Shown here: positions 22,331 to 54,796 of the stretch, piece by piece
How positions within the stretch are numbered: the first letter of the stretch is position 1
Layout of the letters: every line of letters starts with the position of its first letter
NCBI GenBank assembly: GCA_913776245.1
Contig: CAJYLO010000020.1
Location: 1-64,000, forward strand
From: an uncultured Chryseobacterium sp.
Lineage (GTDB): Bacteria; Bacteroidota; Bacteroidia; Flavobacteriales; Weeksellaceae
Length of the DNA stretch: 64,000 bases
Direction of reading: 5' to 3'
Made by a program: the position numbers and the translations under genes
The notes under the pieces: model-generated
What the model saw: only the letters and a program-made list of their open reading frames with translations
What the model was told of the DNA's origin: nothing
The model's database searches: none

Positions 22331-22421
22331 TCTACTATGCGCAGCTGCGTAAGCGATAGTAGCGGATATCCTTTTTTGTCGGCTTGCGAGCCGACGAAAA
22401 AGATAGTAGCGGATAGCGCGG
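22331..22421 (-). repeat. Variable-palindrome element flanked by direct repeats
   Basis: GATAGTAGCGGATA occurs twice (22355-22368 and 22401-22414) around a hairpin whose core is GTCGGCT/AGCCGAC (22378-22395) extended by T/A runs. The outer end holds GCGCAGCTGCGTAAGCG. On the minus strand its direct repeat reads CCGCTACTATC, as in the element at 40038-40126, but the palindrome sequence differs. Confidence 0.7.
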
Positions 22422-22581
22422 TCTTTATATTTTTATTTTGGAAAAGCTGTTGGAAAAAATATGAAGATACGCCCAAATTTTTGAAAATCAGGACTTTTTG
22501 GCTTTTAATTATTGATTGTAAATCAGGAATCAGACATTTTGCTATGAAAATAGCTGCGGTATTCTTTTTGAGATTATGCTA

Positions 22582-39972: not shown

Positions 39973-40037
39973 ACAGATGTTTTTTATTTTTAGGAGCAAC
40001 AAGATTGGTCCTTTGGTTCACTTTTCCAACCCGCTGT

Positions 40038-40126
40038 CCGCTATATCTTTTTTCCCCGGCTAAACCTCACAGGTTTTAAAAACCTGTGAGGTTTCCTCCA
40101 GCGCAAAAAAAGATGCCGCTACCATC
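40038..40126 (+). repeat. Variable-palindrome element flanked by direct repeats
   Basis: CCGCTATATC (40038-40047) and CCGCTACCATC (40116-40126) flank a perfect hairpin at 40062-40094 with 16-base arms (AAACCTCACAGGTTTT) and a one-base loop. Runs of T and A next to the direct repeats pair as in the element at 22331-22421, while the palindrome itself is unrelated in sequence. Confidence 0.75.
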
Positions 40127-40259
40127 GGGGCTATGTTGAGGTTTCGTCTTTACTTTTAAACGGTTTTTTAAACCACACAAAATTAGTTTAAAAAAGGTAA
40201 AAATGTTACAGAATACGAAATTCAAAATATAATATTAATTCTTTGATGAGCGTGAGCGT

Positions 40260-49552: not shown

Positions 49553-50398
49553 CTATTTATCCAAAATTCCTCTGATCTTATTTGCATTCACAATCAGCTC
49601 TTCCAAATAATCAAAATTCTCCTTCTCCAAAGCAGATTTGAATTTCCTCAGCTGCGTAATATGTTCATTCAGAACATCCAAGACATTTTCTTTGTTTTGA
49701 CGGAAAATAGGTACCCACATTTCCGGATGGGATTTTGCAAGACGAACGGTGCTGGAAAACCCGGAACTTGCCAATTGAAAAATCGTGTCTTCTTCCCGTT
49801 CTTTTTCCAAAACGGTATTGGCCAAAGCATAAGAAGTAATGTGAGATATATGTGAAATATAGGCTGTGTGAATGTCGTGAGAATCAGCATTCATATAAAT
49901 CGGGTGCATTTCCAGCGTTTTGATCACTTTTTCTACAGTTTCCAGCGCATCGTTGTCAGAGTCTTCTTTATTACAAATTACAGCAGCTTTTCCTGTAAAA
50001 CTGTCTTTGGTAGCGGCGTTCGGTCCGGAATTTTCCGTTCCCCACATCGGGTGGAAAGCCACAAAGCGCTTTCTGTCCGGATGATTTTTGATTGAATCTA
50101 CAATGCCGGATTTTGTAGAACCCACATCCATTACTACCTGCTTTTCATTGATCTGATCCAGCACTTGTGGTAAAATGTTTTTGGCAGCATCTACAGGTAT
50201 AGAAATGATAATCAGATGCGAATTTCTGATGCCTGCATGGAAATCTGTTTTTTCATCAATGATATTGAGTTCTAGCGCTTTATTTAGGTTGTCTTCATTT
50301 TGGTCAATTCCGTAAACAAAATCGGTAAAGTTTTTTTCTTTAAGTTTCAATGCAATGGAACCGCCAATGAGTCCTGTTCCGATAATTCCTAGCTTCAT
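49553..50398 (-). CDS. tyrA: Prephenate dehydrogenase
   Basis: The protein is 281 residues, a monofunctional TyrA without chorismate mutase or ACT domains. The dinucleotide-binding loop is GIIGTGLIGGS (residues 4-14), the Asp in VYGIDQNEDN suggests NAD, and AFHPMWGTENSG holds the catalytic His region. The reaction oxidatively decarboxylates prephenate to 4-hydroxyphenylpyruvate, the precursor of tyrosine. Upstream on the same strand lie a promoter, a Tyr-rich leader peptide and an attenuator, so expression should respond to tRNA-Tyr charging. Confidence 0.94.
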   Translation of the reverse strand: MKLGIIGTGLIGGSIALKLKEKNFTDFVYGIDQNEDNLNKALELNIIDEKTDFHAGIRNSHLIIISIPVDAAKNILPQVLDQINEKQVVMDVGSTKSGIVDSIKNHPDRKRFVAFHPMWGTENSGPNAATKDSFTGKAAVICNKEDSDNDALETVEKVIKTLEMHPIYMNADSHDIHTAYISHISHITSYALANTVLEKEREEDTIFQLASSGFSSTVRLAKSHPEMWVPIFRQNKENVLDVLNEHITQLRKFKSALEKENFDYLEELIVNANKIRGILDK

Positions 50399-50430
50399 TT
50401 TATAAAGTTTTCTATTAATTACTTAAAAAC

Positions 50431-50459
50431 AAAAAACCCCGTCATCAGGACGAGGTTTT
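50431..50459 (-). terminator. tyrA attenuator (factor-independent terminator)
   Basis: On the minus strand AAAACCTCGTC and GACGGGGTTTT pair around a five-base loop (50444-50448) with one wobble, followed by TTTTTTG. It lies between the leader peptide and tyrA. Its 5' arm (CCTCGTCCTG, 50446-50455) can instead pair with CAGGATTAGG at the end of the leader ORF (50479-50488). Confidence 0.85.
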
Positions 50460-50479
50460 GATATTGATACATACGAATC

Positions 50480-50536
50480 CTAATCCTGTTTCAGGTTTTG
50501 AATTGCGTAATAATATGTTCTGTTTATTGTTTTCAC
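50480..50536 (-). CDS. Tyr-rich leader peptide of tyrA
   Basis: The ORF encodes 18 residues, MKTINRTYYYAIQNLKQD, from a GTG start to TAG, with three consecutive Tyr codons (8-10). No ATG is in frame, so GTG is the only plausible start. It sits 33 bases before the attenuator and 82 bases before tyrA, a prephenate dehydrogenase gene that makes the tyrosine precursor. Ribosome stalling at the Tyr codons would leave codons 17-19 (CAGGATTAG) free to form the antiterminator. This is the standard layout of amino-acid attenuation; it is inferred, not proven. Confidence 0.82.
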   Translation of the reverse strand: MKTINRTYYYAIQNLKQD

Positions 50537-50540
50537 AAAA

Positions 50541-50572
50541 CGAAGATAGAAATTAATTTTGTTAAAATCAAA
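50541..50572 (-). promoter_or_regulatory. Promoter of the tyrA leader
   Basis: On the minus strand TTTG is followed after 20 bases by TATCTTCG, near the TAnnTTTG consensus. The GTG of the leader peptide starts only four bases after the -7 box, so the leader would be translated from a leaderless or nearly leaderless RNA. Confidence 0.55.
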
Positions 50573-50578
50573 AAAAAA

Positions 50579-52861
50579 TTAAGGATTCGAAATAATCAAA
50601 GTTGATGGAATATCCGATAACCAGAGACTTTTGGTGTCTATGAGATTCTTCCAGCTTTTGCTGCTGATGAGCATCAGATCCTGAGATTCCAGGAAATCTT
50701 TCTCAATGGTTTTTTCATTGTAAAGTGTGATATGATTAGGCGCAATTTGTTCGATGGTTCTTATCAGCTCACGGATTTCTGTGTTTTTCCTGATTTGTCC
50801 GGCAGCATCCAGGATGATCACCTGGGAATCATTGTTGTTGATGAGTCGCTTGGCATATTCAACCAGATAAAAATCATTCAGATCAAAAACGGGAATAAAA
50901 ATCTTGTCAGCGCTTTCAAAGTTTTTGTCTACCATTATTCCCACAGGAATATTGGTTCTATTCAGGATGCTCAATGTAAAATCATCAAAAGGCGAGGTAT
51001 TAAAAATATATGATTTTCCTTTTACGGTATTCAGTAATTTTTCCGGGTTGATGATCTTCGTTGTGAAACCCAACAGTTTACCCAGCAGTGTCCCTTCATA
51101 GATGGATTTGCGTATCATCACAAGCAGCAGATCATAATTGCCTTTGTTGGAAATGCTGATCAAATCATTTTCGATATCATTAGATGCCTTGAAAAGAGTA
51201 GTTACCTGCAGTTTCAGTTCCTGCGAAGTGTTGATAATGTCTGAAAATAATTCGGTCTCGTAATTTTCAGAGTCAAATGCGTGCAGACCGTCTACCGGCG
51301 AAATATTCATCGCAGTAATACTTTTATTAGCGTTCATTTTATGGGTAAAATTGTCGGCTAATTTTAACAAAGTGCTTCCGGCTTCCGGGTTTTCAAATGA
51401 TAAAAGAACTTTGTACTTAGCACTTTCCTGCTCATCAATGTCATCGGTCATTGACATCTTTCCTTTGAACAGAAAATTGATGAAATCCAGCGAAGGACCT
51501 GTCATAAAGGTTGTAAATAAAGCCATTATAACCATCATTGCAAAAATCTCAGGACTCAGAACGCCGAGATCATAACCGATGTTGAGGACGATCAGTTCCA
51601 TCAAGCCGCGCGTGTTCATCAGTGCACCGATTGTAAGGCTGTCTTTCCAATTAATTTTAAGGAATTTTGCAGTCAATGCACTCCCCACGAATTTTCCTGT
51701 AACAGCAATAAGGATGATCAGGACTGCTGTCATCCAGAGATGTCCGTCATTCAGCAATCCGATCTGGGTTCTTAATCCTGTAAAAACGAAAAATAACGGA
51801 AGTAGTAAAACCAAAGCAACATCTTCAACCTTCTCGATAAAAAGATTCCTGAATTTTGCATTTTCCGGCATTATCGCACCAGCCATAAAAGCGCCGAAAA
51901 GCGCATGGATACCGATAACTTCCGTCGCATAGGCAGAAATAATCAACGTAAGAAAGAAAATGGCAACAATGGATTTATTGATGAGTCCTTTCCCAGCTTG
52001 TAACTCTCCAACTCTTTTCAGGAAGGGTCTCACGATTTTTATCATCAGGAAAACATAGGCAATAGCCATCAAGATCACATAAATAGAGCTGGCAAAGGAG
52101 CCGGCTTTTACAATCGCAATGACAGCTGCAAGAATGCACCAGGCGGTGATGTCATCCGCAGCTGCACAAGTGATGACTATGGTTCCGAGTTTGGTTTTCT
52201 GAAGATTCCGCTCCTGAACAATTCTTGCTAAAACAGGGAACGCTGTGATGCTCATTGCAATGGCTATAAACAGAGCAAATGAGCTGAACTGCACACCGTC
52301 CGGCGCAAATTCCTTATAAATAAAATAAGATAGCCCGATTCCTAATGCAAATGGAATGATGATGCTGGCGTGGCTGATGACAACGGCATCGTGTGCTCTT
52401 TTTCTCAGCACACTCAAATCCAGTTCCATTCCCACGATATACATAAAAAGTATTAATCCTATCTGGCTTAGAAACTGCAGATTTCCCAAAGATTCTTTCG
52501 GGAATAAAAATGTTGAAAACTCAGGGAAATATAAGCCCAAAAGGGAAGGGCCAAGAACAATGCCTGCAATCATCTCACCGATAACGGAAGGCTGTTTCAT
52601 CTTCATACAGATCCACCCAAAAAGCCTTGCTACAAAGATAATGGTCACAATCTGAGCGAGAAGAAGTGCCAGCGGATGATGGAGATTAATCATAAAAGAC
52701 TCCGCAAAATTATCCCACATTGTGCCGGTTGGGTTATGACGGACAATTTTTTCACCGGCTTCAAGCGTTTTACCTTCGATGAAAAACCAATACATCAAAA
52801 CAGAGAAAACTACAATTGTTGCAACGTAAAATATAATATTCCTGTACTTTGCCATAATCAT
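50579..52861 (-). CDS. Cation/proton antiporter (CPA2/Kef-type) with C-terminal regulatory domain
   Basis: The protein is 760 residues. After an N-terminal helix comes a 12-13 helix Na+/H+ exchanger domain (about 60-480) with QPSVIGEMIAGIVLGPSLLG, the ion-binding AADDITAW and NTRGLMELIVLNIGYDLG. The last 250 residues are soluble and resemble paired UspA-like folds (KYKVLLSFENPEAGSTLL, VMIRKSIYEGTLLGKLLG) that may bind nucleotides. It should exchange Na+ or K+ for protons at the inner membrane. Start may be the Met at 52861 or the one two codons later. Confidence 0.9.
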   Translation of the reverse strand: MIMAKYRNIIFYVATIVVFSVLMYWFFIEGKTLEAGEKIVRHNPTGTMWDNFAESFMINLHHPLALLLAQIVTIIFVARLFGWICMKMKQPSVIGEMIAGIVLGPSLLGLYFPEFSTFLFPKESLGNLQFLSQIGLILFMYIVGMELDLSVLRKRAHDAVVISHASIIIPFALGIGLSYFIYKEFAPDGVQFSSFALFIAIAMSITAFPVLARIVQERNLQKTKLGTIVITCAAADDITAWCILAAVIAIVKAGSFASSIYVILMAIAYVFLMIKIVRPFLKRVGELQAGKGLINKSIVAIFFLTLIISAYATEVIGIHALFGAFMAGAIMPENAKFRNLFIEKVEDVALVLLLPLFFVFTGLRTQIGLLNDGHLWMTAVLIILIAVTGKFVGSALTAKFLKINWKDSLTIGALMNTRGLMELIVLNIGYDLGVLSPEIFAMMVIMALFTTFMTGPSLDFINFLFKGKMSMTDDIDEQESAKYKVLLSFENPEAGSTLLKLADNFTHKMNANKSITAMNISPVDGLHAFDSENYETELFSDIINTSQELKLQVTTLFKASNDIENDLISISNKGNYDLLLVMIRKSIYEGTLLGKLLGFTTKIINPEKLLNTVKGKSYIFNTSPFDDFTLSILNRTNIPVGIMVDKNFESADKIFIPVFDLNDFYLVEYAKRLINNNDSQVIILDAAGQIRKNTEIRELIRTIEQIAPNHITLYNEKTIEKDFLESQDLMLISSKSWKNLIDTKSLWLSDIPSTLIISNP

Positions 52862-54424: not shown

Positions 54425-54796
54425 TTATTTTATTTTTTTCAAATCCAGGAATTCCGCTTTATCCTTGCATTTGGAATAGTGGATTTCATAAGTAGGATTA
54501 TTCTTGGGATAGTTCAGAATATATTCCGGACAAGGTTTTTTCTGGGCGTTGCTTTTATCAAAATTAATTGTTCCGTTGGGAATTATATTATCTTTTAACT
54601 CTTTTTCGGAAATCTTATTGACTTCGAGTGCTTTTTTAAATTGCTCTGAATAAGAAAAATCTTTGGTTAGCGTTTCTGCAATAACTCTATCGGTCGGGAA
54701 ATAAGAGCAGCTCGTTCCTTTCTGATTCAGGATAAAAAACACGATGATTAGGCCTGGAACAAAGCCTATCAGATAAAATTTTAATTTTTTGAGCAT
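54425..54796 (-). CDS. Single-pass membrane protein of unknown function (DUF4258-like)
   Basis: The protein is 123 residues with one N-terminal helix (6-24, FYLIGFVPGLIIVFFIL) and a soluble part with conserved-looking GTSCSYFPTDRVIAETL, IPNGTINFDKSNAQKKPCPEYIL and YEIHYSKCKD; three Cys could bind metal or form disulfides. I associate this pattern with small proteins near alanine dehydrogenase in Flavobacteriia, labelled DUF4258, but from memory only. It lies 9 bases after ald and 3 before the kinase gene, so it is within one operon. Confidence 0.6.
   Translation of the reverse strand: MLKKLKFYLIGFVPGLIIVFFILNQKGTSCSYFPTDRVIAETLTKDFSYSEQFKKALEVNKISEKELKDNIIPNGTINFDKSNAQKKPCPEYILNYPKNNPTYEIHYSKCKDKAEFLDLKKIK

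Follow-up and report, generated by a model that had tools for sequence, protein, structure and literature searches.

How is tyrA, the gene for prephenate dehydrogenase, controlled in an uncultured Chryseobacterium sp. in which it is preceded by a short open reading frame (ORF) with three consecutive Tyr codons and by an intrinsic terminator? In the trp, his and pheA attenuators, a short ORF with codons for the end-product amino acid, mutually exclusive hairpins and a terminator stand before the biosynthetic gene. The same general scheme is described in the part of PMC2659441 that is used here. An earlier note on this DNA, which was made from the sequence alone, proposed that tyrA is governed by an attenuator of this kind and knew of no published description for this group. 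For the tyrA element itself, this last statement stands: no description of a Tyr-only leaderless attenuator for a tyrA that stands alone was found in the open-licence literature on Tyr leaders, on leader peptides of Chryseobacterium and on leaderless leader ORFs of Bacteroidota. For flavobacteria in general it is too broad. Parts of a study on Flavobacterium psychrophilum (PMC9723704) report strong clues to leader-peptide attenuation before amino acid operons and name conserved elements before pheA and hisG, so that the Flavobacteria are not wholly undescribed in this respect.

Organization of the tyrA leader

The window, the whole 64,000-nucleotide stretch of contig CAJYLO010000020.1 that was analysed, carries on its minus strand, from 50572 to 50424, a promoter of the Bacteroidota type, a leader ORF, an antiterminator and a terminator in this order, followed by tyrA. 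All elements named by the earlier note were found where it had placed them on this strand, whereas hairpin 1:2 had been overlooked. The features are listed below.

50569..50572, minus strand: possible -33 element TTTG, with a 20-nt gap to the -7 box; weakly conserved
50541..50548, minus strand: -7 promoter box TATCTTCG (TAnnTTTG type), from sequence and alignment
50536..50540, minus strand: spacer TTTT (50540-50537) and predicted transcript start at the first base of GTG (50536)
50480..50536, minus strand: leader peptide ORF of 18 codons with a GTG start and a TAG stop, MKTINRTYYYAIQNLKQD, from sequence
50507..50515, minus strand: consecutive Tyr codons TAT TAT TAC (putative sensor), from sequence
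50472..50509, minus strand: hairpin 1:2 (anti-antiterminator), from folds and double-sided changes in the helices
50446..50488, minus strand: antiterminator 2:3, 50488-50479 with 50455-50446, from folds and conserved pairing
50424..50459, minus strand: intrinsic terminator 3:4, stem 50459-50433, with a T run, from terminator scan and fold
49553..50398, minus strand: tyrA, prephenate dehydrogenase, the proposed regulated gene, from NCBIfam and Pfam

The TyrA protein matches the NCBIfam equivalog PRK08507 with 366 bits (cut-off, 295) and contains the Pfam domains PDH_N and PDH_C, and the gene downstream of the leader is thus one that makes the amino acid of the leader codons. Among the best 80 of 188 relatives, the closest TyrA matches come from Epilithonimonas, with 92% identity, and not from Chryseobacterium. 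The strand CAGGATTAGG (50488-50479) pairs with CCTCGTCCTG (50455-50446) through nine pairs, one of which is G-U, with one mismatch, as the earlier note had counted. The intrinsic terminator sits between the leader ORF and tyrA and folds at -14 kcal/mol (z -3.5). When a region of 601 bases was scanned on both strands, four terminator-like sites were found, two of them nested in the leader hairpin, against 0.2 expected from shuffles.

Elsewhere in the window, two matches to Flavo-1 RNA, a motif of unknown function, are located at 22339-22427 on the plus strand (56 bits) and at 40023-40136 on the minus strand (54.6 bits), and an L19-Flavobacteria ribosomal protein leader is located at 2783-2810 on the minus strand (40.7 bits).

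Conservation among close relatives

One scan of genome contigs yielded 188 tyrA relatives; the best 80 of these and the window form a set of 81 sequences, which is not a random sample. Leaders were collected with a search expression that requires a -7 box of the form TAnnTTNG, followed after exactly 4 nt by an RTG start, and two Tyr codons side by side. The layout was found before tyrA in 77 of the 81 sequences, and in an alignment of 53 non-redundant sequences 32 of the 138 columns do not vary, indicating that it is kept by more than chance. The leader was absent at four of the 81 tyrA loci, namely in two sister Chryseobacterium species (L022 and L054), a Cloacibacterium (L043) and a Kaistella (L070), and inspection by eye of the 230 bases before tyrA revealed no leader at another spacing at these four loci. 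At L022 and L054, GGCGGAG or GGCGGGG followed by Ts is located before tyrA, which could be a remnant of the 3' arm of the terminator.

The leader ORF comprises 16-18 codons in the 77 leaders. The Tyr run, whose conservation the earlier note had set as a check, is kept in these 77 of 81 sequences and reads TAT TAT TAC in 38, TAT TAT TAT in 35, TAT TAC TAT in three and TAT TAT GAC in one. Three Tyr codons are therefore present in 76 leaders, which vary at the third base only, and two in the remaining one. The GTG start, for which conservation was likewise expected, is found in 67 leaders, and the other 10 have ATG. The distance from the start codon to the Tyr run is 21 nt (70 leaders) or 18 nt (seven leaders), so that it shifts by a whole codon only. 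The strand-2 motif follows the Tyr run at a distance of 30 (54 leaders), 29 (19 leaders) or 27 (four leaders), so that in one group the frame of this motif relative to the ORF is shifted by a single base. Between the motif and the terminator arm all values from 29 to 35 occur, so that this last distance varies freely.

The consensus and position of the -7 box were taken from parts of PMC9723704 and PMC6847099. Positions 1, 2, 5, 6 and 8 of the box (T, A, T, T and G) are invariant in all 53 aligned relatives, positions 1, 2, 5 and 6 being already required by the expression that collected the leaders. The promoter had been described as TTTG-20-TATCTTCG. It is present in the window and its box is conserved, but TTTG lies 17-23 nt upstream of the -7 box in only 18 of the 77 leaders.

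A codirectional gene for a cation/proton exchanger ends at 50579, just upstream of the leader, as would be expected if the hairpin were only the terminator of that gene and the short ORF were fortuitous. However, a promoter lies between this gene and the hairpin, and among 76 leader-bearing relatives the exchanger is the nearest upstream match within 1.5 kb in only 35, against six for the ORF at 54425 and 35 with neither, in a count that used two window proteins as queries and included some loci carrying less than 1.5 kb of upstream DNA. The leader is thus associated more closely with tyrA than with the neighbouring exchanger gene. Because the Tyr run, the position of the stop codon and the 1:2 stem are also conserved, we regard a mere terminator of the exchanger gene as extremely improbable.

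Three mutually exclusive hairpins

Folding of each of the 77 leaders gave three hairpins that are unable to coexist. In hairpin 1:2, the 5' arm starts with Tyr codon 3 (50509), and the 3' arm contains the stop codon and ends at 50472; this hairpin overlaps the regulatory codons in the manner of a protecting hairpin. The presence of this third, anti-antiterminator hairpin assigns the leader to the full three-hairpin type of attenuator. The antiterminator 2:3 excludes the terminator because strand 50455-50446 is common to both. All three hairpins can form in 77 of 77 leaders, with mean energies of -11.1, -9.3 and -14.1 kcal/mol for 1:2, 2:3 and 3:4, respectively, and worst energies of -7.1, -5.4 and -11.0 kcal/mol. 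The mean z values against dinucleotide shuffles are -2.0, -1.6 and -4.0, which is only modestly below the shuffles for 1:2 and 2:3, and z falls below -2 in 44, 25 and 77 of the 77 leaders, respectively.

A covariance model, R1, was built from 53 of the 77 leaders after 24 had been dropped at an identity of at least 93%. It was searched against 87 loci, and the 83 matches, including a decayed copy (L116), were aligned as A2; R1 gave no match at the four loci that lack the leader. On A2, which was fitted to the structure of 1:2 plus 3:4 and leans towards it, these helices are paired in 93.6% of the cells (at most 56.6% in slid versions). Fourteen of their 26 pairs are changed on both sides, compared with a mean of 6.6 in shuffles that keep shared ancestry, and none of 500 shuffles was as high. 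The terminator 3:4 alone is paired in 99.7% of the cells in the 83 sequences. For the antiterminator 2:3, 93.3% of the cells are paired in the same sequences (at most 60.3% in slid versions), but one double-changed pair of eight does not exceed the shuffle mean of 1.4; its conservation is therefore clear, whereas its covariation is not. The earlier note had suggested conservation and covariation of the two competing stems as a check. Both stems are kept; compensatory changes beyond the shuffles accompany 3:4 (together with 1:2), and those in 2:3 do not exceed the shuffles.

RNAalifold on the MAFFT alignment A1 gave the terminator only, and the structure-fitted alignment A2 resolved 1:2; we think that 1:2 was missed on A1 because MAFFT did not align it by structure. 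In the folds of single sequences, the third base of Tyr codon 3 forms a C-G pair in 27, a U-A pair in 27 and a U-G pair in three of the 77 leaders and is unpaired in 20, and on A2 the pair at this base is non-standard in 31 of 83 sequences. In four Chryseobacterium leaders (L020, L062, L064 and L073), a GCACAA/TTGTGC helix lengthens 1:2 and encloses the Tyr codons.

A conserved structured leader ahead of an amino acid gene might also be sensed without a stalled ribosome, for example by a tyrosine-binding RNA fold or a T-box. The Rfam covariance-model scans of the leader, however, gave no family at the gathering threshold, and a T-box was not among their matches. The promoter, the ORF and the stems account for the conserved parts, and what is kept includes a start codon and an open frame of 16-18 codons with the Tyr run. 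Direct sensing by the RNA is thus very unlikely in our view, and the ribosome-mediated reading is followed in the next section.

Ribosome position and proposed mechanism

The effect of a ribosome was modeled by masking, in folds of leader RNA that was cut before strand 4 and with a given codon placed in the A site. With the ribosome at Tyr codon 1, 2 or 3, the 2:3 helix was formed in 77 of 77 leaders. With the ribosome at the stop codon, it was formed in 0 of 77, which is a direct consequence of the masking. These results suggest that stalling on the Tyr codons would favour antitermination and that completion of the leader peptide would favour termination. In the absence of a ribosome, 2:3 rather than 1:2 was formed in 18 of 77 leaders, including the window, so that an untranslated leader might read through in the window and in 17 others.

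On the computed anatomy, its conservation, the exclusive folds and the compensatory changes in 1:2 and 3:4, we base a prediction of transcript start, translation, stalling and read-through. Transcription would start on the G of GTG and give a leader RNA without a 5' UTR, and the ribosome would consequently have to load on the 5' end of the RNA. When tRNA-Tyr is charged, the ribosome would reach the TAG stop and cover strand 2, the 5' strand of the antiterminator, which contains the stop codon; the terminator 3:4 would then form, and RNA polymerase would stop near 50430. When tyrosine is short, the ribosome would stall on TAT TAT TAC and block hairpin 1:2. Strand 2 would then pair with strand 3, no terminator would form, and tyrA would be transcribed. 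Most likely, tyrA would be transcribed only under such a shortage. The amino-acid attenuation scheme of the earlier note is supported by the Tyr run in 77 of 81 sequences and by both stems being kept in relatives. We consider it highly probable that the tyrA leader is a ribosome-mediated transcription attenuator, predicted to be leaderless, which couples the expression of tyrA to charged tRNA-Tyr.

Distant relatives of the leader

At E <= 0.01, R1 matches 137 of 246 genomes of the family. Twenty weaker or second matches were inspected. Nine of them, with E no higher than 1.8e-4, are all located before tyrA; the other eleven (L121-L131), with E of at least 3.8e-4, look like plain terminators and were rejected as attenuators. 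By this dividing line, 128 of 246 family genomes, belonging to four of 33 genera, match, a minority of these genomes having been inspected singly. One of them carries the decayed copy L116, in which GTA is found in place of the start codon.

In two diverged genera, g23 and g32, both the Tyr run and the terminator have been kept, and a stop codon still falls within the antiterminator strand or beside it. In g23 (L118-L120), the leader ORF is VKMNNAYYYSNLNDH, VKMNNAYYYSNLNDR or VELNNTYYYSILKRT. The terminator arm reads CCCTGTCC or CTCCTGTCC in this genus, and the strand that matches it, GGACAAG or AAGGACAAGG, is located at the stop codon. In g32 (L112 and L113), the spacing is 5 nt and the start codon is ATG; the strand TAGGATG matches CGTCCTA and, in L113, is located directly 3' of the stop codon.

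At E <= 5e-4, matches to R1 were found in 36 of 296 genomes sampled from the order and in six of 296 sampled from the phylum, all in the family of the window, in a scan from which diverged kin may escape because the model is tuned to its clade and the filters are strict. Among 38 tyrA loci outside and within the family, six remained unscanned because the tyrA motif search missed tyrA. A Tyr leader before tyrA was found at none of the 17 scanned loci (of 22) outside the family; within the family, two of 15 scanned loci (of 16) have one, those of g23 and g32, and 13 are without. In a TyrA tree of 50 hand-picked rows with a midpoint root and several weak supports, the leader-bearing g32 and g23 branch before several genera without the leader and before Epilithonimonas plus Chryseobacterium. 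This topology appears compatible with an early gain of the leader and later losses, though not only with that.

Leaders before pheA and hisG

A Phe/Tyr-rich ORF precedes pheA at four of four loci from other Flavobacteriales families (L188, L192, L193 and L194) and at two of 18 further loci within the family of the window (L222 and L224, both of genus g21). Its distance from a -7-like box is 29 nt in L193, 17 nt in L194, 18 nt in L222, 25 nt in L224 and 8 nt in L188, and L192 has no -7-like box in reach. The ORF of L188 may be nearly leaderless too. At 12 pheA loci of the window's genus, no Phe/Tyr-rich leader ORF was found; stretches containing Phe and Tyr codons at these loci were rejected because they look like tails of upstream genes or wrong-frame pieces. 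At 10 of the 12, L185 (G000:C20), L179, L181-L184, L186 and L189-L191, pheA is preceded by TAATTTCG, 4 nt and ATG, so that pheA of this genus may itself be leaderless.

Before hisG, a His-run leader ORF was found at 13 of 13 loci. It follows a -7-like box by 17-33 nt at 11 of them, and no box was found at the other two. In the genome of the window (L203), the His-run ORF of hisG is MSIQFMHHHHHFLAQTGR. It begins 18 nt downstream of a -7-like box, is followed by a terminator-like stretch and is likely to be part of a His attenuator in the same genome.

Start of the leader transcript

The predicted near-leaderless start is the most unusual feature of the tyrA leader. The earlier note had observed a GTG four bases after the -7 box and had predicted hardly any untranslated RNA before it. 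This prediction is supported by a spacing of 4 nt between box and start in 77 of 77 leaders (4 nt being required by the search expression); in genus g32, box and start are 5 nt apart. The spacer tetramer takes 30 different forms and is purine-free in 54 of the 77 leaders; in these 54, no purine occurs downstream of the box until the start codon opens with one. In Flavobacterium johnsoniae, 4-5 nt separate the -7 box from the transcript start (PMC6847099), and in F. psychrophilum the box occupies -12 to -5 (PMC9723704, in the part used here). Together with the 4-nt spacing, these published distances and positions predict +1 on RTG. The leader RNA would thus most likely begin at GTG or ATG.

Alternatively, the attenuator could have a transcription start farther upstream and an ordinary 5' UTR. 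The His leader of the same genome, with its 18 nt after the -7-like box, would have a UTR of about 14 nt, and in flavobacteria leaderless mRNAs make up a minority of 5.5% (PMC9723704, in the part used here). In addition, the pattern TANNTTYGYYYYRTG (-7 box, four pyrimidines and RTG) occurs nine times in the genome of the window and eight times in a reversed control, showing no genome-wide enrichment. Six of the eight other matches in this genome, however, open ORFs of 211-402 codons, which indicates that the arrangement does precede real genes. The 4-nt spacing also accompanies the leader in all 77 sequences despite the many tetramer forms, and 4-5 nt is the published distance from the -7 box to the start. 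On balance, a start farther upstream seems unlikely, and we retain the leaderless start for the comparisons below.

Discussion

Comparison of relatives strongly supports the view that the tyrA leader is a three-hairpin, Tyr-only attenuator, most likely a leaderless one. The scheme is common to the gamma-proteobacterial pheA leader (Rfam Phe_leader, RF01859) and the trp and his attenuators. In contrast to Phe_leader, the tyrA leader has Tyr instead of Phe codons, tyrA alone downstream and, by prediction, no 5' UTR; it scores only 25.2 bits, below the gathering score of 55, and is therefore not a member of that family. The aroF-tyrA operon of E. coli likewise belongs to the tyrosine pathway, and its main control is repression by TyrR. 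In the part of PMC2659441 used here, aroF is tabulated as an 'attenuator sensing tyr-tRNA', citing Camakaris 1980.

The flavobacterial pheA and hisG elements have the same order of elements, and attenuation is suggested for them in the relevant part of PMC9723704. Those leaders sense Phe plus Tyr, or His, whereas the tyrA leader is Tyr-only and located 4 nt from its box. An attenuator RNA that starts on the start codon of its leader ORF, as is predicted for the tyrA leader, is trpL (rnTrpL) of Sinorhizobium meliloti, which differs in sensing Trp, in its alpha-proteobacterial host and in its ATG start; in S. meliloti, the short RNA and the peptide also act in trans (PMC7298713, in part). The ilvBNC leader of Corynebacterium glutamicum likewise has three hairpins with an anti-antiterminator and is discussed as a leaderless mRNA, but it responds to branched-chain amino acids and belongs to the Actinobacteria (PMC11857589, in part).

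For this clade of Weeksellaceae, we propose that a mixed Phe/Tyr attenuator of the pheA-tyrA operon may have become Tyr-only upon the separation of tyrA, and leaderless. In this phylum, which does not depend on Shine-Dalgarno pairing, direct loading of the ribosome on a 5'-terminal, mostly GUG codon would then set how the ribosome competes with RNA polymerase; we give this scenario an even chance of being correct. The leader would be an amino-acid sensor that is both compact and open to testing, in a phylum, the Bacteroidota, for which attenuation has been proposed but is little studied in the literature that we found. The conserved leaderless GUG start, if true, would provide a clean handle on ribosome initiation without Shine-Dalgarno pairing. 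The contrast with the Phe/Tyr-rich pheA leaders of other families suggests how the specificity of such a sensor may shift when an operon splits.
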